Of a stretch of 64,000 bases of DNA, positions 2,123 to 45,800 are shown one piece after another; position 1 is the stretch's first letter; each line of letters opens with the position of its first letter. This DNA is from Polyangiaceae bacterium (lineage in GTDB: Bacteria > Myxococcota_A > Polyangia > Polyangiales > Polyangiaceae): assembly GCA_025353725.1 (NCBI GenBank), contig JANXOF010000023.1:248001-312000 (forward strand). Reading direction: 5' to 3'. Position numbers and translations under genes: made by a program. Below the pieces are notes generated by a model. That model had not been told where the DNA came from. It made no database searches and saw only the letters and a list, made by a program, of their open reading frames with translations.

Positions 2123-3688
2123 ATGCGCAGCCTTGTAGGTGTTCTGGCGGTCGGGCTAAGCGTCTTCTCCACGGGCTGCGCTTCGGTGCCCACGGACTCG
2201 CCAAACGTCACGTCGCCCGCAGTGGTCATTGACTTTTATGCGGGCGACGCGCCGTCGGGCTCGTGCTCGGGGACTCTCATCGCCGAGAATCTGGTTTTGA
2301 CGGCAGCCCACTGCGCGGCAGGGAGCACAGGCGCCGTTGTGACGGCGCCAGCGCTCAGCGCGTCTGTGCCCGCTCTGCGTGTGCTTCAACATCAGGACGC
2401 GAGCGACGCGTCGGAAGTCGACGTCGATATCGCCGTGGTGGTCCTTGGCGCGCCGTTGAAGCTTGAGCGCTATCCGGCACTCGGGACGTGCTCGGGCTGC
2501 ACGGTCTCGCAGGTCATGAGCGACATCGGGGGAAAGGCCGCCGCAAGTGCGACCGCCCGACTGTCGACCGCGGCGCCCGCAGCTTACCCGAACACGCGCT
2601 ACTTGGAACAAGGCCTTCCGGATAGCGGAGGGGCCGTCTACCAGATCGACGACGACGGACGCGCGATGTCTGTGGTCGGCGTCACGGTAGGTCGCGGCGA
2701 GACAACGGGCGGCGGGTACGTCGCAGACCTGGCCGTGTACGACTTTCACGCTTGGCTGCAGGCCGTGGTCGAAGCCGGCCCGACGTTGACATCCAACGCG
2801 TCGAACGCCTTGAATGCCTCAAGTCGCTCGAGTGCGACGGAGTCCGGTCTTCAGCCGCAGGGCGTGACGAAGCCTGCCGCCGTCCAGAAGTTGAACGACA
2901 ACCTTTTGGGTGGCTCCAGCCCAACGCTTCTCTCGGGATCGGGCGACCCGCTCCTCGTCCCAACGCCGCCGACGAAAAGCGAGGTGATTCGAGGACCTGT
3001 CGCACGTAGCGCCGCCCGCCCATGCGGCGCGGGTGCGACCGTAGGAGCAGGCGCGCCAAAACAGGACTGCAACTCGCGCTATAGTACGCAGCTTATATTC
3101 GATGTTACGCGCGAAGGTAAGTGGCATTCGCTTGGAACAAGCAATTCAAAGACGAATCCCAACGCGGTGGGATATTTTAGCGATGACGATCTCGCATTTT
3201 CCACCGCGCAATCCGAGGCAAAAGCCATTAACGCGCGCGGTTACAACTACTTCACCGGGCACGGCGATGCGGGAGTGCTCTACGCCTCATCGAAAGAATT
3301 GCCACAATTCATGTCCAACTCCTACCCAAGTCTCCTGACAAGCTGCCACGGCGGCGATATCAGGAACGGCAACTCAGCCGCTTATCTTCTTGCGAAGAAC
3401 GCAGGGGTCGACCCGGCTTCGGTGTGGGGCTGCACGGGCAACGTGTGGCCGGCGCAGACGTTGGAACGCAAGGGGAAGACGATCACGCTCACCGGGATCA
3501 GCTGCAGAGGCGCCTGGGTAAACGGGAACGGAGAGCTGATGCCCACGAGAATTCAAAAGGACCTTGACCTCGCCTGCATCGACTCGGATGTAGCTACCGT
3601 AACTTGCCGGTTACCGAACGCTTGCCAGTTGGTAGCCGAAGGTAGCGGTGGGGTACGGAGCGGAGGCGTTGGCCAATCCTGCAACTAG
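2123..3688 (+). CDS. Lipoprotein: trypsin-like S1 protease fused to an HG...C (caspase-clan-like) module
   Basis: 521 aa. Signal peptide with lipobox STGC (Cys about residue 19) sets the start at the ATG at 2123. The N-terminal half is a small S1 protease: LTAAHC (His about 63), VDIAVV (Asp about 102) and LPDSGGAV (Ser about 167, in place of the usual GDSGGP). After a Ser/Thr/Pro-rich linker (about 220-310) comes a Cys-containing C-terminal region with YFTGHGDAG (His about 379) and LLTSCHGGD (Cys about 407), 28 residues apart. A His-Gly followed by a strand ending in Cys is the catalytic layout of clan CD proteases (caspase, gingipain, CHAT, DUF4347); that fold is my inference. The C-terminal region is AT-richer than the N-terminal one, suggesting a mosaic origin. 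The same two parts occur as separate genes at 43081-45800. Confidence 0.75.
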   Translation: MRSLVGVLAVGLSVFSTGCASVPTDSPNVTSPAVVIDFYAGDAPSGSCSGTLIAENLVLTAAHCAAGSTGAVVTAPALSASVPALRVLQHQDASDASEVDVDIAVVVLGAPLKLERYPALGTCSGCTVSQVMSDIGGKAAASATARLSTAAPAAYPNTRYLEQGLPDSGGAVYQIDDDGRAMSVVGVTVGRGETTGGGYVADLAVYDFHAWLQAVVEAGPTLTSNASNALNASSRSSATESGLQPQGVTKPAAVQKLNDNLLGGSSPTLLSGSGDPLLVPTPPTKSEVIRGPVARSAARPCGAGATVGAGAPKQDCNSRYSTQLIFDVTREGKWHSLGTSNSKTNPNAVGYFSDDDLAFSTAQSEAKAINARGYNYFTGHGDAGVLYASSKELPQFMSNSYPSLLTSCHGGDIRNGNSAAYLLAKNAGVDPASVWGCTGNVWPAQTLERKGKTITLTGISCRGAWVNGNGELMPTRIQKDLDLACIDSDVATVTCRLPNACQLVAEGSGGVRSGGVGQSCN

Positions 3689-3803
3689 GAGACGCTGGCG
3701 ATTTCTTCCAACCTTTTTCCAACTCTTGCCATCGGGCCAAGCGCCACTGTCTTGTAACCTGCCACAGGGAAAGCTCTGAGCGACGACATAGCGCGGGTAC
3801 AGA

Positions 3804-3824
3804 CGGGGCCGACAGTTGGCCCCG
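3804..3824. terminator. Hairpin between convergent genes
   Basis: Seven-base perfect stem (CGGGGCC / GGCCCCG) with a seven-base loop, lying between the convergent stops at 3688 and 3922. No T tract follows on either strand, so this is a weak bidirectional terminator candidate. Confidence 0.35.
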
Positions 3825-3865
3825 CACTATACCGGGCGTTTATTCTTCGACGTCTCAGCCCTCTG

Positions 3866-3904
3866 CTCGGTCACGCCGATCGGTCAGGCCAATCGGTCGG
3901 GCCA
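3866..3904. repeat. Three tandem 13-bp units
   Basis: Consecutive units CTCGGTCACGCCG, ATCGGTCAGGCCA and ATCGGTCGGGCCA; the last two differ by one base, the first is more diverged. Situated 18 bases from the stop of the DUF4397 gene, in the convergent intergenic region. No function evident. Confidence 0.6.
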
Positions 3905-3921
3905 AGCCGCTGGAAGCTACT

Positions 3922-5424
3922 TTAGTGGTTAGCGGATGACGGCATCACGCGAACGGGCGTGCTCAGCGTCCATTCTGCCTTGGTGGTATCAACGATGAAG
4001 GGCCGAGGAAACCGCGATCCACGTGGCGCCTGCAGTGTTCCGGTGACGACGACAAAGCTGCGGCCCGCGGCAGGAAGCATGAAATCCCACGTGCCGAGGT
4101 AAACCGGAATGATGTCGTCCGGACGCTCGATTCCGATTTGGTAGTCTCCCGGCGCGACACCGAGACCGAGCGCATCGGTGGAGTCCAAGTACCGAAGCCC
4201 TCTCACGAGCTTGTTGTCCAGCCTCGATCTCGTGGCCGTACCCACATTGACGGGTCCGACATCCGAGGCGGTATGCACCGCGCGAATAAGCGACTGGGTC
4301 TGCGCGCGAGCGCCGAGGTCGAACCCCTCCGCGTACGCCGAAAGGGTCACCGCGGATCGGTATCCGGGGGCGGCGATGCCTGAGGCGACGGCGAGGTACT
4401 TTTGTCCTGCGTCAAGCTGTCCAGTACCTAGCGTTGCGAGAGCCGTGGTGGCCGGACGCGCAGGACCGGGAGTCGCGGCATAGAAGTCGAGAGCGTACGC
4501 TCCGGGAGGCACTTGAATGCCGGCGGAGAGTTCGTCTGGCGCAAGATCGGACGCGAGCTCGGCATCGCCGGCGAAGATGTCAACGGGGCCAAGAGCTTGC
4601 ACGCCGTGGAGGGCATAAATCTTCGGATTTTGCCGAATAACGCCGATGACTCCGTCCGGACCGACCGCGAGAAGCGCGAAGCCCTCGTTTTCGCGTGGTA
4701 GTTTCGCGAGGAGGCCTGTCGCGATGACGAACAGGTTGGCTTGTGGCGGAAGCGCCGGGGTTGTGAATGCGGTGACACGGCTACCGCCTGCGGTAATGCC
4801 AATCTGCAAAGAGGTGCCGGATGGCACCTCGACGCCCGCTGCGCCCGTATCGGCGAACCGGTCCAGCGCGGCCACTTCCGGCGCGACCGGATTATCGTTT
4901 CCCAGGTCAATCCCGACGGTAGGCGCATCGGCAGACGCGTGCACAATCCGGACGCGCGCGTTGCTCGGCCCGCCGCCGAAGCTTTCCGCAAGCGGCAGCA
5001 CGCGAAACGCGTCCTCCGTGCCGGACGAGCCGAGGAGGCCGGAAGCAACAGCCGTAATTTTCGAGCCACGGTCAATCGTCAGGGGCCCCGTGGAGTACGC
5101 GACCGGGTCGTTCGACGTCGAGGGGGCTGCGCGAAGTTGAAGGGTGTAAGAGCCCGCGGGCAAACGGAGGTAGGGAGAGGCTTCGGCAAAGCCGAGTGCC
5201 TTGATGAGTGGCTCAACGACCCCCTCGGCATACACGTCGACGCGCGGAGCGTCTGGAGAAGCGTGAACGACACGAACCTGAGCGAAGCGCGAGGTGCGGA
5301 GCTCGGCAGCTTGCTCTCCGTTTTGGGTGTCCACCGCAACTGAATCGCTCGAAGCGGCTAAGCAGCCTACTGCGGAGAGAGCAAGCAAAGGGAGAACGGA
5401 GAGACTTGAAAGTCGAAATGTCAT
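3922..5424 (-). CDS. DUF4397-domain lipoprotein
   Basis: 500 aa. Start chosen at the ATG at 5424 because it opens directly into a lipoprotein signal with cysteine in SAVGCLA. The frame is open further upstream but without signal-like sequence. Internal repeats begin with VRVVHASPDAPRVDVY (about residue 50), VRIVHASADAPTVGID (about 160) and a weaker IRAVHTASDVGPVNVG copy (about 380); these are hallmarks of DUF4397, a beta-sandwich domain of cell-surface proteins with no known enzymatic activity. Likely exported and lipid-anchored. It is transcribed alone, convergent with the protease fusion gene and followed upstream by an intergenic region carrying a possible Uma2-like relic. Confidence 0.85.
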   Translation of the reverse strand: MTFRLSSLSVLPLLALSAVGCLAASSDSVAVDTQNGEQAAELRTSRFAQVRVVHASPDAPRVDVYAEGVVEPLIKALGFAEASPYLRLPAGSYTLQLRAAPSTSNDPVAYSTGPLTIDRGSKITAVASGLLGSSGTEDAFRVLPLAESFGGGPSNARVRIVHASADAPTVGIDLGNDNPVAPEVAALDRFADTGAAGVEVPSGTSLQIGITAGGSRVTAFTTPALPPQANLFVIATGLLAKLPRENEGFALLAVGPDGVIGVIRQNPKIYALHGVQALGPVDIFAGDAELASDLAPDELSAGIQVPPGAYALDFYAATPGPARPATTALATLGTGQLDAGQKYLAVASGIAAPGYRSAVTLSAYAEGFDLGARAQTQSLIRAVHTASDVGPVNVGTATRSRLDNKLVRGLRYLDSTDALGLGVAPGDYQIGIERPDDIIPVYLGTWDFMLPAAGRSFVVVTGTLQAPRGSRFPRPFIVDTTKAEWTLSTPVRVMPSSANH

Positions 5425-5582
5425 AGCGAACCTACTTAGTGAAGTGAGCGCAACCCTTGTTGCGCCCCGTATGAGTCTGCGAGTGGCGCCGTCGCGACCG
5501 TGTCGCACGTCGGCAAGGGATAGTTCGCCCAGACGGAACGTTTGGATTCACCGCTCGAAAAAAACTTCGTTGGATTTGTGGT

Positions 5583-5693
5583 CACGAGCCCGCGCGTTGG
5601 CTCCTCGCCGATACGTTTCAAAACGACGCCATCGTAAACGCCGAGCCCTTCGAGGCATTCGACCTTACGCTCGACTTGCTTTTGGAGCGGTAG
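5583..5693 (+). pseudogene. Possible C-terminal relic of a Uma2-family (DUF820) gene
   Basis: In the frame ending with the TAG at 5691-5693, the translation has a run PARWLLADTFQNDAIVNAEP followed by FEAFDLTLDLLLER and stop. This resembles the tail of Uma2-family proteins, where a short strand reading like 'W.LL..F..D..V.AEPF.A.EL.L' ends the fold. Upstream the frame becomes unlike protein and has no start. I read it as a 5'-truncated remnant. A possible N-terminal Uma2 relic lies at 19721. Family call is by eye only. Confidence 0.35.
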
Positions 5694-5697
5694 CCGC

Positions 5698-6564
5698 CTA
5701 GCGCAGCGCCGCGAGAACGCGCTTCCATGCGGAGGGCCAAAACCGACGCGGGTGCCATGCGAGCGCGTGACGCTCTTTCAGCACGCGGCGCGGCTCGAGG
5801 ATCGCAAGCTCGCCACGCGCTACGAACGGCGAAGCGAACTCGACGCTTAGAACGGAATAGCCCATACCTAGCGAGACCATCTGCGCGAGGCCGTCTGTGT
5901 TGTTCGCGAAGTGGCGCTCGGGGCGGCACACTGCCGCTAAGTCCCATTGTGCCAAATAGCGTTGCGTGAGCGTGTCGGCGGGATTGAAGTCGACGATTCG
6001 CTCCTTGCTCGCGACGTCGCGCACGGTTCGTTCCTCCCACGCTTTCGGCACCACCATCACGTACGCCTCGTCGCGGAGTAACCGCCGCGAGAGCGCGGGC
6101 GCCACCCGATCGTGGGCCACCACGATAAAATCACACTCCATGCGCTTCAAGGCCTCGACGTCGCACGCGAGGTCCTCGATTTGCCATTCGATCGTCACCT
6201 CGAAATCCGCGGCAACGATCGCCGCCGCGGACGCCGGAAGGAGACGCGAGCGTACGAGACTCGAAGGCCCACGGATGCGCATATGCGTGCATTCCACTTG
6301 CATCGAAACGCCGAGTCCTGCGAGCGTCGTCTGCTCAATCGCGGCCATGTCTTTGCTCGCCCGAAGAAGCAGCGCGCCTTGCTCGGTGAGAACCATGCCT
6401 CGGGGGGTCCGCAAAAACAGAGAGCAATGAAGGTCTCCTTCAAGGTTTGCAAGTCGCCGCGTCACGGCGGTCTGCGTCAGACCGAGGCGAACCGACGCCG
6501 CCCTCACCGTACCCTCCTCCGCGATACGCAGGAACGCGTCGAGATCGGCCGAGAGCATTGCCAT
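5698..6564 (-). CDS. LysR-family transcriptional regulator (ArgP-like)
   Basis: 288 aa, full LysR length. An N-terminal winged helix-turn-helix is seen at about residues 5-62 (LDAFLRIAEEGTVRAASVRLG, then LTQTAVTRRLANLE), followed by a co-inducer-binding domain. The order and spacing, including the AWEERTVRDV and FNPADTLTQRYL region, resemble ArgP/IciA, which controls lysine/arginine exporter genes. No LysE-type exporter is adjacent; the divergent neighbour is a small secreted protein (6684). A pair of palindromes in the 120-bp divergent region (6575-6601) are likely operator sequence. ArgP-like is inference; LysR is firm. Confidence 0.88.
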   Translation of the reverse strand: MAMLSADLDAFLRIAEEGTVRAASVRLGLTQTAVTRRLANLEGDLHCSLFLRTPRGMVLTEQGALLLRASKDMAAIEQTTLAGLGVSMQVECTHMRIRGPSSLVRSRLLPASAAAIVAADFEVTIEWQIEDLACDVEALKRMECDFIVVAHDRVAPALSRRLLRDEAYVMVVPKAWEERTVRDVASKERIVDFNPADTLTQRYLAQWDLAAVCRPERHFANNTDGLAQMVSLGMGYSVLSVEFASPFVARGELAILEPRRVLKERHALAWHPRRFWPSAWKRVLAALR

Positions 6565-39957: not shown

Positions 39958-42036
39958 ATGCAACGCGTCTTGTTCACTCTTACAGCGGCTATCGCGGGCG
40001 CCGTCTTCGTTGCGCCTCACGTGGCGTTCGCCGCGGATGATGCAAAACCGACGGAATACGTCGTTAAGGCTGGCGAAACTTGTTCCACGATCGCGGCGAC
40101 CGCGTTCGGTGACATCAAGCGAGTCGATCTCGTTCACCTTCTCAACACGTCGCTCGGTCCGGTGCCGCACATCCTCCACGCCGGCCAGATTCTGCTCCTC
40201 CCGCCGAAACCTACGCCCGCGCCTCTCGCGCCCGATGCGACGCTCACACGCATTCGAAACGTCGTGGAAGTACGAACGCCGGAGCCCCGACCTGGGAAGC
40301 CGAACGACCCGCTCTTTCGGGGCAATCGCGTGGGCACCAAGGAGTCGTCGGCCGCAGACCTGACGTTTCGCGACGAGACCCAAGTGAAGCTCGGAGAGAA
40401 CACGTTGGTCGTGATCTTCGGCGATACTCAGGCGCGGGCGGCACGCACGAACGCGGCGGACGCGACGCTCGTAAGCGGTCACCTGAGGGCTAGTCTGTCC
40501 TCGATCGCCGGCAAAAAGCCGGACAAGCCACGCTTCGACACGTCGAGCGGCGCGGTCGTCATCAACGACGGCGAAGCGCAGATAAGCGTCGACGACAAGC
40601 AGGCCACGCGACTCGCCGTCTACCGGGGTGGATCGACGGTGACGGCGCAGCGTCGCACGGTACCCGTCGACGACGGCTTCGGGTCAAAAGCCGAAGTCGG
40701 CCGTGTGCCCACGCCGCCAAAACCGCTGCCAGCGGCTCCGGTCTGGACCGTGCCGCCCGCGGCGCTCGTGCTCACGGGAGGTGCGCAGGGCGACGTCTCC
40801 GGCACGTACGCGGCTGGGCAAGGCCCGGGCGACGCGCCAGCCGAATGGCACGTGCAGATTGCACGCGACACCAACTTCGACACCGTCGTCGTCGACGTGC
40901 GGGTCCCCGTGGCTGTCGTCGCGCTTCAAGCGCAAAAAGTGCCGCCGGGAACGTACGCCACGCGCGTGAGTGCGATCGACGGCGACCACTTCGAGGGCAA
41001 GTGGAGTGCGCCCGCGAGCTTTGCGGTCTCGCGTCTCGCGGTTCTCGATAAGCCTCGTCACCGCGCGCGCATCGAGACCGAAGACAAATCCCTGACCTGT
41101 ACCGTCGATGGCGGCGCTCACGAGCTCTTTCCGATCGAGCTTGGGCGAAGCTCGCGTCATTCGCTCACGTGCACGCGCGCGGGTTCTACGGCGACCTTTG
41201 CCATCGACGCGCTCCCTTTGACCCAAGTGCGCGCCACGGCCGACATGCTTTGGCGTTCCGATCACGCCGGAGCGCTGCGCGTCCGCCTCACGGACGAGAA
41301 CGACGAACCCCTTGATCGGATCGACGTCTTCGCCGACGCACCGAAGGCGAACGTGGAAATCGGGCGCTTTCACAGATTCGCAAGCGAAGGCGTCTACATC
41401 GCTCCGATTTCGTGGAAGCCCGGGGCGGGAACTCCGCGCTTCACGCTGCGGGTTGCGGGCGCATTCGTAGCGGAGACCAACGCCGTGGCGCTTGACCCGG
41501 CCGTGGCGGTCGAGAGCAAGCGGAAGGCTCGCGCCGAACTGTCGCTTGGCGGTGGCGCTTCCGTTCGGGCGGCGGCGCAGCTCGGCTTCTCGGGGTTCGT
41601 GGGGCTCGGGCTAGCCGTACCGCTTGGCCGCGGCGACGTCAGCCTCGAGCTTCGTGGGTTCGGCGACCGCTACCCCGTCGCTTCGGTCGACGTGGAACTC
41701 CAGGGAATCAAGCGCGAATCGCGCATAGGCGTCACGCTCTTGGGTGCTTCGCTGCCCCTCGGCTACCGCTTCGGGCTGGAGACGGCGACGGTGGTTCCCT
41801 ACATTGTTGCCGGACCTCAGCTTGCGCGTCAAAGCGTCGACGACGACGCGACGGGCACCCGCGCGACCGCCTTGGCGCTCGGCGTTTATGCGGCCGTCGG
41901 AGTCGGATTGCGCGCGGGCCCCGGTGCGGTCTTCCTCGAGGGCGGGTTCCGTGGGGCGACCCTCCTCGGGAAGGACACGTCTTCGGTTTCCTCAAGCGCA
42001 CTTGGGCTCGCACTCGGGTACCGACTTCGTCCGTGA
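39958..42036 (+). CDS. LysM/FecR-domain outer-membrane-associated protein
   Basis: 692 aa. Signal peptide, then a LysM domain (EYVVKAGETCSTIAATAFGD to HAGQILLLPP, about 33-80), a FecR-like domain (about 85-240: FRGNRVGTKESSAADLTFRD, GENTLVVIF, VINDGEAQISV), Ig-like beta domains (about 275-500) and a C-terminal beta-rich, Gly-rich region (about 520-692) whose alternating strands and final YRLRP suggest a barrel. LysM binds peptidoglycan and FecR domains act in signalling or as structural folds. Likely a periplasmic/outer-membrane protein. Sits between the kinase and the FGE-sulfatase-like gene. Confidence 0.82.
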   Translation: MQRVLFTLTAAIAGAVFVAPHVAFAADDAKPTEYVVKAGETCSTIAATAFGDIKRVDLVHLLNTSLGPVPHILHAGQILLLPPKPTPAPLAPDATLTRIRNVVEVRTPEPRPGKPNDPLFRGNRVGTKESSAADLTFRDETQVKLGENTLVVIFGDTQARAARTNAADATLVSGHLRASLSSIAGKKPDKPRFDTSSGAVVINDGEAQISVDDKQATRLAVYRGGSTVTAQRRTVPVDDGFGSKAEVGRVPTPPKPLPAAPVWTVPPAALVLTGGAQGDVSGTYAAGQGPGDAPAEWHVQIARDTNFDTVVVDVRVPVAVVALQAQKVPPGTYATRVSAIDGDHFEGKWSAPASFAVSRLAVLDKPRHRARIETEDKSLTCTVDGGAHELFPIELGRSSRHSLTCTRAGSTATFAIDALPLTQVRATADMLWRSDHAGALRVRLTDENDEPLDRIDVFADAPKANVEIGRFHRFASEGVYIAPISWKPGAGTPRFTLRVAGAFVAETNAVALDPAVAVESKRKARAELSLGGGASVRAAAQLGFSGFVGLGLAVPLGRGDVSLELRGFGDRYPVASVDVELQGIKRESRIGVTLLGASLPLGYRFGLETATVVPYIVAGPQLARQSVDDDATGTRATALALGVYAAVGVGLRAGPGAVFLEGGFRGATLLGKDTSSVSSSALGLALGYRLRP

Positions 42037-42097
42037 GACGCCCGCACTTCGCGCAAACAAGCTTCCACCCGAGCGCGCCGCGGGGCAGAGTTACCGC

Positions 42098-43084
42098 GTG
42101 GTCCACCGAAGTGTCGCGGCGTTGATTCTGGTCGTATCGTGCGCCAGTTTCGAACTTCGTTCGGCGCCCGCGCCCCTTGCAAAGGAGTCTCCGTCCTCGC
42201 GAGAAGCGAGCGTCGACGAGCATGCCTCGGTGACGCGCGCTTCCGTCGTACCCCTCGAACTCGATGCAGGGACAGCCGAATCGGGAACCACCGACGCGCC
42301 TCCGCTCGCGGCAAAAAGCGAACTCCCCGAAGGTATGCAGCTCGTGCCCGGGGGTACGTTCACGATGGGCACTGAGGCAGGCGGTGAAGGCGATGAGCGA
42401 CCGGCCCACCCGGTGACCGTAGCGACGTTCTGGCTCGATACGACGGAGGTGACCCAAGCGGCGTACGACGCGTGCGTCACGGAGGCCGTATGTGTCCCCC
42501 CCGACGCCGCGATTCTCGCGACGTTCGCGGGCCTTTTCAAAGGACCGAACAAGCCCGTGATTGGCGTATCTTGGTTCGCGGCGCGCGACTACTGCGGATG
42601 GGGGCAAAAACGATTGCCTTCAGAGGCCGAATACGAGCGCGCCGTACGCGGCGATGACGGTCGCCGCTTCCCATGGGGCAACGAACCGCCGACGCACGAG
42701 CGAACCGTATTCGAAGCGAACGCAACCGATGACGTCGGGGCCCATCCGTCCGGGCGCGGTCCCTATGGCCACGACGATCTGGCCGGAAATGTGTGGGAGT
42801 GGATAGCCGACGACTACGATCCGTTCGCGTACACGCGGGCGGGAGCAGAAACGGGTCAGGCAGGCTCGTGCCAAGAGATCCTTCGGGCTCAGAACCAGCT
42901 TCGTTCGGAGGGAAAACAGGGATTCACCGGGTCGAATCCGATTCCCACGGAGTGCGAAAAATCGATTCGAGGTGGCGCCTACAATTACGCGTCTGCGGGG
43001 CTACGCAGCACCAATCGCATTCACCACCCACCCTCGTTTAAACTGCGCATGACAGGCGTACGCTGCGCGAAAGACGCACGCTAA
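42098..43084 (+). CDS. FGE-sulfatase (SUMF1/PvdO) domain lipoprotein
   Basis: 328 aa from the GTG at 42098, giving a lipoprotein signal ending in VVSC. The SUMF1-type domain is clear: GMQLVPGGTFTMGTEAGG, TTEVTQAAYDACV, NKPVIGVSWFAARDYCGW, RLPSEAEYERAVRG, DDLAGNVWEWIADDYDPF, SIRGGAYNYA, and GVRCAKD at the end. Family members include formylglycine-generating enzymes, ergothioneine synthases and lectin-like surface proteins; the copper-Cys pair of FGE is not identifiable, so enzymatic activity is uncertain. Convergent with and overlapping the protease gene at the stop codons. Confidence 0.85.
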   Translation: MVHRSVAALILVVSCASFELRSAPAPLAKESPSSREASVDEHASVTRASVVPLELDAGTAESGTTDAPPLAAKSELPEGMQLVPGGTFTMGTEAGGEGDERPAHPVTVATFWLDTTEVTQAAYDACVTEAVCVPPDAAILATFAGLFKGPNKPVIGVSWFAARDYCGWGQKRLPSEAEYERAVRGDDGRRFPWGNEPPTHERTVFEANATDDVGAHPSGRGPYGHDDLAGNVWEWIADDYDPFAYTRAGAETGQAGSCQEILRAQNQLRSEGKQGFTGSNPIPTECEKSIRGGAYNYASAGLRSTNRIHHPPSFKLRMTGVRCAKDAR

Positions 43085-44229
43085 GGTCGCCGAAGCCTAA
43101 CGACCTTGCCGTCGTGCTCTTCAAGAACGGCCTTTTCAAAGACCTGAGTCCACACGCTAGGCCCCGCCGCGCGAAGGTCATACCGAGCTGCGGAGAGTGG
43201 GTTCCCGAGCGCAGGCTCACCGCCGGCCTCTGCGAACGCCCGCGCAAACGAGCCGCAAACTTCGACCCTCGACACCCGACTCGGAAGGCACGTGTCGTAG
43301 TGAGACGAGGGAGTTCCGCCCACGACGACAACCCCCTTCGACGCGAGCCAGCTGCCGCTATCGAATCGAGACGCGAGGTCGAACCTCGTATGCCAATTTG
43401 CAACGCTCACATCCTGCTTATTTTTATCGGCGAACGTATAGTAGGCGTTCACCCCCACCACGAGACGCGCGCCACTCTCACCGCGGTAGACTGGCCCGCC
43501 CGAATCACCCGGACAAAGACTCGCGGCAGCCGGGTCGAGCCGCTGCCCTGGAGAAAAGAAGTACCCATTGTCGACCAAGGCCGCTGACGTCTGGCCAGGA
43601 CGATTGAAGTGACTGTCTTCGAGCGAAATCACGTTCGTCGCCTGCTGCTTCAGCACGCGCGCGTTGGGAACCGGCGCCGTTAGGCCTACCTCACAGCCGT
43701 ACCCCATAATCACAATAGGATCACCTCTCTTTACTGGAGATATATCTACTTGCGCGACAGGAACGCTCGAAAGTCTATCCTCCGCATCCGCCGTGAGCTC
43801 GACGAGGGCCACGTCCGAAGCCACTGCGGCGTCGAGGACGCGTACGCCAAGCAGGTCGCCCTCGAAGTAGGAAGACTCAACATACGTATGTGCAATAGTC
43901 ACCAACCAATCGAGACTAGACTTGTCATTAATGACTTTGTTTGCACCGGTAAGCATCATCGTGGCGCCGGGCCGAAACGAGGCAAGAACAGACTTCGATA
44001 CAGAGTCCGACACGCAGTGCGCTGCCATAAGAATATGGCGCGGCCCAACACGCGACGCAGTGCAGTTGCCTTGAACCCGAAGCGTCGCGAGGAACTCGTG
44101 TTCCTCCGCGATTTTCCCTCCGATCAAGGCCGACTCATCGGAGTTATCCATCAGCTCACCTTGACTCGCGCATCCGGTCACGCCGGACAATGCGACCAAA
44201 AGAGCACACGACATCCGACACGTTATCAT
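43081..44229 (-). CDS. Trypsin-like S1 serine protease lipoprotein
   Basis: 382 aa. Lipoprotein signal (LVALSGVTGC, Cys about 20). Full S1 catalytic triad: ILMAAHC (His about 71), SDVALVEL (Asp about 139), LCPGDSGGPVY (Ser about 243); IGGKIAEEHEF resembles the activation site after propeptide removal, so it may be a zymogen. After the protease domain (to about 290) comes a C-terminal region of about 90 residues with two Cys (DTCLPSRVSRVEVCGSF). Two bases separate its start from the stop of the upstream HG...C protein, so both are made from one message. The segment is AT-richer than the surroundings. Confidence 0.85.
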   Translation of the reverse strand: MITCRMSCALLVALSGVTGCASQGELMDNSDESALIGGKIAEEHEFLATLRVQGNCTASRVGPRHILMAAHCVSDSVSKSVLASFRPGATMMLTGANKVINDKSSLDWLVTIAHTYVESSYFEGDLLGVRVLDAAVASDVALVELTADAEDRLSSVPVAQVDISPVKRGDPIVIMGYGCEVGLTAPVPNARVLKQQATNVISLEDSHFNRPGQTSAALVDNGYFFSPGQRLDPAAASLCPGDSGGPVYRGESGARLVVGVNAYYTFADKNKQDVSVANWHTRFDLASRFDSGSWLASKGVVVVGGTPSSHYDTCLPSRVSRVEVCGSFARAFAEAGGEPALGNPLSAARYDLRAAGPSVWTQVFEKAVLEEHDGKVVRLRRP

Positions 44230-44231
44230 GG

Positions 44232-45800
44232 CTACTTCGCGCTCCACATACGAACAACGTACTCGGGAGTCACACCATCAGTCTGTGCTCGAACCGAAAT
44301 TGAGACAGGTGCAGGCGTTGTAACTCGAACGTTACAGAAAGAGTTCATCCCGCTTTTAAGGTCGTCGCATCGAACGAATTCGCCGTCTCCAACTTTCAAT
44401 CTCAGCTCCGCGCTTCCGCCGGACCTCGATAGACTTGGTCCCATAGACACGCGATACAATCCTGCCGGAACCGTACCTAACTCATGACTTCGAGTTTCGC
44501 CTTGACGGACGGTGCCAACTACGGAGGTCGCGTACGTCGGGTCGATTTTCGAGTTCGAGTCGAAGGCATTGTCTTCATCTCCCGTGACGACAGAAACCTG
44601 GCCGGCATCCATCTCTCTCAACATATCTTGGTATGACCGCCTCGCCTCGGGCTGCATGAGCCCAGAGATCATGGCGGCTGCGTTTCCCGACATGGAATAA
44701 AACATGGCAGGCATGGCGGTTGTAACGATGTCCAAGTACTTTGAACTCCATGGATCGTCCGAGTTCAGATGACGCCGCGCATCAAAAAACTTCTGATCTG
44801 CATAGGAAAATGTATTGCAGTTATCAAAAAATACGATCTGGTACTTACTTGGAACAAACGTACCCATACTCGACAGCGCGCGCACGTTTGCACCGAGACC
44901 TGCATGACCGTGATACATAAGAAGGTCTGCAAACGGTGACAGCTCCGAGTACCTCCTGATCTGCGCGGGCGTCATCTCGGCTGGAGAATCGATGAGAGCA
45001 GCCGTGATGAGAATCGTACGTCCGGGAGATAGCGTCGCCTGGAGAGCCGTCTCTGAGCCTGCGGCGCTCGAGTCACCTACCGTCGCGACCGCGGCGTTTG
45101 GGAGCAGCTTCCGCATGCGAAGAATAAAGTTATTATAACCTAAGACGCCGGGGTCCTGAGGGTCGCCGCCGTTTTTGACTTTACCAAAATAGCTAACGAC
45201 GTTGAGAATACCATCCTCCCAGACGCGATCGTACTCGGGGTACTTGACTGACCTTTCGACTGCTCCGACAGAAACTTTGGCGTCGGTTTTCGCAACGTCT
45301 CTGGCATCCATCGCACAGGCGTTCGCGGAAGGGCGGTAGTAAAACCAAAAGTTGAAATCCGTCACTTTCTCGGGATGGCCGTCGTTACACAACTGACCAT
45401 ATTTGTTTTTAAATGTGCTTCGCGCCGATTCAGACATCGAGAGCGGCAACACAACCGATAACGTTTGAGGAATGGCGCTTCGCTTTCCCCATGCTACGGG
45501 CACCTTTGCATGATAGCGAATGCGCCTCACGTTGCCGGCGTCCTGACGCTCTTCGACCTCCGTGAGAGCTATCTGTTCGAGCCTTGGTCCGCTGCCATGT
45601 CCGTTCAGCTGCCCGACCAAAAACATTAGTTGATTCTTAATCACTCGCTCCGCTTTTTCATCTCCCGGCGCGACGACTTCGGCGTGGAAGTCGAGGCTGA
45701 CGAGCGTACTTGCGTCGCTACTAAAGACAATGTCGTTGTCTTTCGTGCCGCCTTCGGTCACGGGCGTTGAGCACGCTACGCCGAGCGCGAGCAAGCTCAT
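44232..45800 (-). CDS. HG...C (caspase-clan-like) exported protein, operon with S1 protease
   Basis: About 522 aa from ATG 45800 (short lipobox-like LGVACS). The frame is open far upstream with no better start, so the true N-terminus is uncertain. Mostly without recognised domain, but residues about 290-335 show LLMYHGHAGLG (His about 297) then VPSKYQIVFFDNCNTFSY (Cys about 328), the same HGxAG ... Cys order as in the fused protein at 2123. Beta-rich C-terminal region (about 440-522) ends RMWSAK, perhaps a targeting or Ig-like domain. Very low GC for this window. Protease activity is inference from the dyad and clan-CD-like spacing. Confidence 0.65.
   Translation of the reverse strand: MSLLALGVACSTPVTEGGTKDNDIVFSSDASTLVSLDFHAEVVAPGDEKAERVIKNQLMFLVGQLNGHGSGPRLEQIALTEVEERQDAGNVRRIRYHAKVPVAWGKRSAIPQTLSVVLPLSMSESARSTFKNKYGQLCNDGHPEKVTDFNFWFYYRPSANACAMDARDVAKTDAKVSVGAVERSVKYPEYDRVWEDGILNVVSYFGKVKNGGDPQDPGVLGYNNFILRMRKLLPNAAVATVGDSSAAGSETALQATLSPGRTILITAALIDSPAEMTPAQIRRYSELSPFADLLMYHGHAGLGANVRALSSMGTFVPSKYQIVFFDNCNTFSYADQKFFDARRHLNSDDPWSSKYLDIVTTAMPAMFYSMSGNAAAMISGLMQPEARRSYQDMLREMDAGQVSVVTGDEDNAFDSNSKIDPTYATSVVGTVRQGETRSHELGTVPAGLYRVSMGPSLSRSGGSAELRLKVGDGEFVRCDDLKSGMNSFCNVRVTTPAPVSISVRAQTDGVTPEYVVRMWSAK

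Follow-up and report, generated by a model that had tools for sequence, protein, structure and literature searches.

A putative exported lipoprotein of the Myxococcota with a predicted clan CD-like domain, encoded next to an S1 protease

A stretch of 64,000 nucleotides from the genome of a Polyangiaceae bacterium (assembly GCA_025353725.1, contig JANXOF010000023.1, positions 248,001 to 312,000), hereafter the window, carries two closely spaced genes on its minus strand. The upstream gene encodes P0001 (44232..45800), a lipoprotein predicted to be exported, which belongs to a Myxococcota family still without a name and carries a clan CD-like domain, as judged from its translation, its homologues and an AlphaFold model, and the downstream gene encodes P0002 (43081..44229), a trypsin-like S1 protease with a lipoprotein signal. 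We consider the chances about even that P0001 is a clan CD-like exported lipoprotein, probably a latent cysteine peptidase of the surface or periplasm, which the S1 protease activates or assists. The putative peptidase, with a conserved His299-Cys328 dyad, would be made with its N-terminal domain as a latent precursor until cut, and the downstream S1 lipoprotein would cut and activate it, or act alongside it, in this locus and, independently, in a handful of further lineages. The export and location of P0001 are suggested by its lipobox signal together with invariant cysteines, and from the features described below we infer catalysis, latency and activation by the S1 protease as the probable properties of the pair.

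P0001 represents a Myxococcota-wide family whose core has neither a Pfam nor an NCBIfam name. Searches of Pfam and of PDB sequences with P0001 alone gave nothing useful, with no match in Pfam. Relatives occur in 32 of the 58 related genomes searched, and a scan of GTDB contigs revealed 178 loci encoding them, at up to seven places in a single genome; the names attached to the 80 retained of these 178 loci are mostly Myxococcota or Deltaproteobacteria. When conservation was scored over 42 aligned homologues, residues Cys10, Cys138, Cys162, Gly298, His299 and Cys328 proved invariant, and His299 and Cys328 were also invariant in a second set (39/39). The putative catalytic His299 (44904..44906) and Cys328 (44817..44819), both encoded on the minus strand, lie 29 residues apart within the conserved motif Y-x-G-H-A-G-L-G...N-G-C-D-T. 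A second subfamily, with the motif YNGHSYIGYG...D[SG]CVSYNYY, is homologous to P0001 over its full length (hhalign 99.9%, E-value (E) 5.8e-31) with the His and Cys in register, and like it bears no Pfam name. With E <= 1e-10 as the cut-off, its profile finds matches in 64 of 194 genomes, some of which are weak hits to the first subfamily. The family as a whole, for which no hit to a clan CD entry of Pfam or NCBIfam was obtained, constitutes a candidate unannotated branch of the clan and, given the number of its loci and the multiplicity within genomes, the family may account for a sizeable hidden share of myxobacterial secreted proteolysis.

Two paralogues of P0001 are encoded in the same genome (L066, G000:C98:319678-321027, and L067, G000:C47:7580-8761), one of them about 26 kilobases beyond the P0001 gene on the same contig, and neither has an S1 neighbour. 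In another genome (L055, G007:C330) tandem duplicates of a family gene lie at 2935-4446 and 4425-5735, the end of one overlapping the start of the other.

An AlphaFold model of P0001, generated from 39 sequences, reached a predicted local distance difference test score (pLDDT) of 85.2 and a predicted template modelling score of 0.85. According to DSSP, His299 follows the strand 293-297 and Cys328 the strand 321-325, and these are consecutive strands of the core. In clan CD peptidases the catalytic His is located at the C-terminal end of strand beta3 and the Cys at the end of beta4 (PMC4357240), an arrangement which the placement of the two residues in the model matches. They fall within an alpha/beta domain of residues 195-415 (44556..45218, minus strand), recognised as clan CD-like by structural alignment with RgpB and by hhalign comparison with family C25. 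Ahead of it lies an N-terminal domain in which two cysteines are invariant, and behind it a beta-sandwich of the bacterial pre-peptidase C-terminal (PPC) type at residues 421-522 (44235..44540, minus strand). The latter aligns with PPC and collagen-binding domains at VIA-align Z scores of about 10-11, and is further identified by Pfam PPC matches in 12 of 26 homologues and by PDB entry 2luw (E 2.5e-8). For the alpha/beta domain, VIA-align ranked the gingipains highest (RgpB, Z 9.7 over 186 residues with a root mean square deviation of 3.9; Kgp, 8.4), with the C11 peptidase iotapain at 8.1 and a caspase at 7.7. Foldseek alone returned mostly the PPC sandwich, and clan CD surfaced only in this second look with VIA-align.

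Profiles for C25, C14 and decoy families were built from Myxococcota genomes and compared by hhalign. The P0001 domain matched C25 with P 0.0046, GHAG being aligned with GHG and Cys with Cys, and its score of 27.8 was above that of every one of 120 column shuffles, though narrowly, the highest of these being 27.6. For C14 the value was P 0.0076, by way of the C-terminal part, and for the decoys it was 0.15 (Arf) and 0.32 (S1); as a yardstick, the established clan CD families C25 and C14 gave 2.6e-4 when compared with each other under the same conditions. A joint profile of both subfamilies brought no gain against C25 (P 0.027). With subfamily 2 by itself, C25 was matched at the GH motif only (P 0.063) and C14 at the Cys motif (P 0.003).

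Gingipains (C25, PF01364) are the best match for this domain of P0001, not decisively so. Apart from the highest fold score, the two share a His and a Cys that follow consecutive strands, export, an N-terminal region ahead of the catalytic domain and a weak in-register profile match, and gingipains are known to be activated through proteolysis (PMC4357240). P0001 differs in having H-A/S in place of H-G, another N-terminal domain, a C-terminal PPC domain and a lipoprotein signal, and the PF01364 cut-off was reached neither by P0001 nor by 25 other homologues, nor by any protein of its own genome. With the C11 clostripain, C13 legumain and C14 caspase and metacaspase families P0001 shares, in its model, the general topology and the order of the dyad, without Pfam membership in any of them; PF00656 (C14) gave no hit in P0001 or its homologues, and both C14 genes that the genome does contain are located elsewhere.

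Several observations weigh against a clan CD peptidase. No family member examined, subfamily 2 included, has a significant hit to a Pfam clan CD entry, and the absolute hhalign probability of the P0001 profile against C25 and C14 is just 5-8%. The residue after His299 is Ala or Ser, where caspases usually have Gly; a Gly does adjoin the putative catalytic His, as in clan CD, but it is the invariant Gly298 directly before it, on the opposite side from that of caspases. Moreover, small GTPases reach Z 7.7-8.2 in VIA-align, close to the clan CD rows, and the fold scores therefore favour clan CD without establishing it. These same features, namely the want of a Pfam peptidase hit, the neighbouring GTPase fold and the Ala or Ser after the His, would suit a pseudo-enzyme or a non-proteolytic surface protein of clan CD-like or other Rossmann-like fold in which the His and Cys are structural or serve in binding. 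We regard this as unlikely, since the two residues are invariant in both subfamilies at the positions of clan CD catalysis, and since the GTPase-type decoy profile went unmatched. The guess of peptidase clan CD, made in the preliminary description of this DNA for P0001 and for a fusion protein considered below, agrees in P0001 with the dyad, the topology of the model and the gingipain-like fold, fits the fusion domain as well, and is probably right for both.

With regard to the S1 partner, the P0001 gene ends in TAG, followed by cc and the ATG of the P0002 gene (44229) on the same strand, a spacing of 2 nucleotides that makes the operon a tight one. The order, with P0001 first and the S1 gene after it, corrects the preliminary description. 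Where P0001 truly begins is uncertain; its frame remains open upstream of 45800, and Met1 lies only nine residues ahead of the conserved lipobox Cys10. P0002, whose gene had been placed correctly (43081-44229/44247, minus strand), matches Pfam Trypsin (PF00089) at E 2.1e-14 and carries intact triad motifs (MAAHC, ASDVAL and CPGDSGGP). It is an ordinary member of the S1 family, unremarkable apart from about 75 additional residues at its C-terminus. A scan for promoters and terminators gave no signal exceeding shuffles. The GC (guanine plus cytosine) fraction is 0.539 for the P0001 gene, 0.590 for the S1 gene and 0.626 for the whole window, and the low value for P0001 may reflect relaxed codon use or recent acquisition.

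The frequency of such pairs was assessed at non-redundant loci with at least 900 nucleotides of downstream sequence, 96 for subfamily 1 and 68 for subfamily 2, with an S1 profile detector that recovered 25 of the 28 S1 genes of the genome. In subfamily 1 an S1 gene adjoins the family gene at two of the 96 loci, the window and L080, the latter with a trypsin-RCC1 lipoprotein downstream on the same strand. In subfamily 2 an S1 gene lies immediately downstream on the same strand at four of 68 (L205, L206, L207 and L258), all of one clade and of the genus of the window, whereas L211 and L283 have one in the opposite orientation. Three separate lineages account for the S1 domains of the window, of L080 and of the L205 clade, and it follows that the pairing arose about three times. 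By chance, 0.3-0.6 independent pairings would be expected, as estimated from 28 S1 genes among about 5,800 genes; three pairings then have P 0.004-0.023, and two, with the window omitted because it prompted the test, P 0.04-0.12. The pairing is recurrent but sporadic, and no more than marginally above chance.

The protein of L080 (2936-5137) combines its trypsin domain with RCC1-like repeats in one exported polypeptide adjoining the P0001 relative. In the S1 proteases of L205-L207 the C-terminal tail contains Cys and is MYXO-CTERM-like, which is not the case in P0002.

The partnership proposed for P0001 and P0002 is weakened by the single S1 neighbour among about 95 other subfamily-1 loci, by the absence of an S1 gene from the orthologous subfamily-2 loci L259 and L223, and by the contigs that carry the nearest relatives of P0002, in which the searches revealed no relative of P0001. 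It is possible, if less probable than a working partnership, that P0001 is a clan CD-like peptidase and the adjacency is incidental, with co-transcribed genes for secreted proteins lacking any functional link. The rarity just described, with one subfamily-2 clade as the only other source of downstream S1 genes, fits this explanation, as do the 28 S1 genes in the genome, the chance values for two pairings beyond the window, and a gene neighbourhood that is not conserved; in an all-against-all comparison of neighbourhoods, synteny around P0001 relatives was seen only among close Labilithrix-type relatives. It fits less well with the origin, in three lineages and from different S1 proteins, of pairs that agree in gene order and strand and have the S1 gene directly downstream, or with the retention of one pairing by four members of the genus, whose S1 proteins are 55-70% identical.

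In other systems S1-type proteases are repeatedly gene-linked to another enzyme. Caspase- and trypsin-containing conflict systems are known in multicellular bacteria (PMC7159879), and in bacterial defence a trypsin-like partner activates pro-nucleases (PMC12799240). The latter is a precedent for activation of a precursor by an S1 protease encoded alongside it; like the proteolytic activation of gingipains, it is no test of the mechanism proposed here. In those systems the peptidases are tied to nucleoside triphosphatases (NTPases) or nucleases, whereas P0001 and P0002 carry export signals and no NTPase or nuclease partner was found for either. A defence role was considered and set aside: PADLOC yielded no hit for P0001 or P0002 and only a weak one to Avs1b (E 0.007) in the trypsin region of the fusion protein.

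If the S1 protease does activate P0001, the pair would exemplify a bacterial extracellular protease cascade assembled through repeated recruitment. A wider version, which we hold to be rather doubtful, envisages phylum-specific surface clan CD peptidases, in two subfamilies and often multicopy, for which S1 activators were recruited at least three times into a two-step extracellular zymogen cascade. If the S1 protease is not the activator, the record is still corrected, in that a motif likeness and a single adjacency do not make a module.

That correction concerns P0003 (1826..3688, plus strand, with a likely start at an internal ATG at 2123), in which an S1-like domain is fused to a separate clan CD-like domain, as indicated by Pfam, by two fused relatives and by profile comparisons. 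A linker separates its Pfam Trypsin match (E 3.5e-8) from a C-terminal region that contains GHGDAG...LTSCHGG, where His479 and Cys507, as reported, lie 28 residues apart (3260..3346, plus strand). The C-terminal domain occurs in three of 194 related genomes, always fused to an S1 domain, and the pattern H-G-x-x-G...C, which includes His479-Gly480 and Cys507, is invariant across the three proteins, a sample of three sequences only, in keeping with the H-G...[A/S]-C motif of clan CD. In a sample of the phylum the sole other noteworthy hit (E 6.3e-5) was a secreted protein that itself matches C13 in Pfam. The domain has no Pfam clan CD membership, and a single-sequence structure model of P0003, with a pLDDT of 34, was not used.

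The preliminary description held that P0001 and the fusion share an HGxAG motif and that their H...C regions, each paired with an S1 protease, form a functional protease module, possibly a toxin, predation or envelope-signalling system. YHGHAGLG and FFDNCN are indeed present in the protein at 44232-45800 (minus strand), with His297 and Cys328 31 residues apart. The motif is out of register, because the conserved His is His299 of G-H-A-G and not His297, and the AG is not conserved among the fusion proteins, whose other members read HGTPG and HGAPG. What the two regions have in common is only the general caspase-type His/Cys signature. That they belong to one HGxAG...C domain family with S1 as a dedicated module is very improbable and, as a specific relationship, already largely refuted, even if the spacing of His and Cys is 28-29 residues in both, YHGHAG falls on FTGHGDA in the best local alignment, and few of 120 shuffles can have matched the direct domain score, at 18.0 close to their maximum of 18.4. 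The profile comparison was not significant, with a hhalign probability of 1.5% for full alignments and P 0.065 for the domains, and the fusion domain fits C14 (P 3.4e-4) and C25 (P 0.0013) better than it fits P0001. On these values the two resemble distant members of clan CD, weakly but in register, rather than close kin of each other, and direct homology beyond the clan level is unsupported; P0003 is a separate and rare S1 plus clan CD-like protein.

Further evidence comes from the two fused relatives. Their S1 domains (L069 and L070) lack the catalytic Ser, and that of L070 also lacks the His; to judge by these sequences, they look like pseudo-proteases joined to a clan CD-like domain. Since only one of the three fused S1 domains has kept its catalytic residues, it is doubtful that the fusion exists for the sake of S1 proteolysis. 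A functional module, as previously envisaged, also fares poorly because most P0001 family members have no S1 neighbour, the pairing is not conserved across homologues and the S1 partners come from three lineages. Of the two results on which that proposal was to stand or fall, a profile match between the H...C regions failed to reach significance, and recurrent pairing in other genomes was found, at the four subfamily-2 loci of one genus and at one more distant locus.

Downstream of the gene pair, a gene at 41744-43084 that matches FGE-sulfatase (formylglycine-generating-enzyme-like; E 2.6e-40) runs towards the S1 gene from the other side, and about 4 nucleotides at the 3' end of the latter are common to both.

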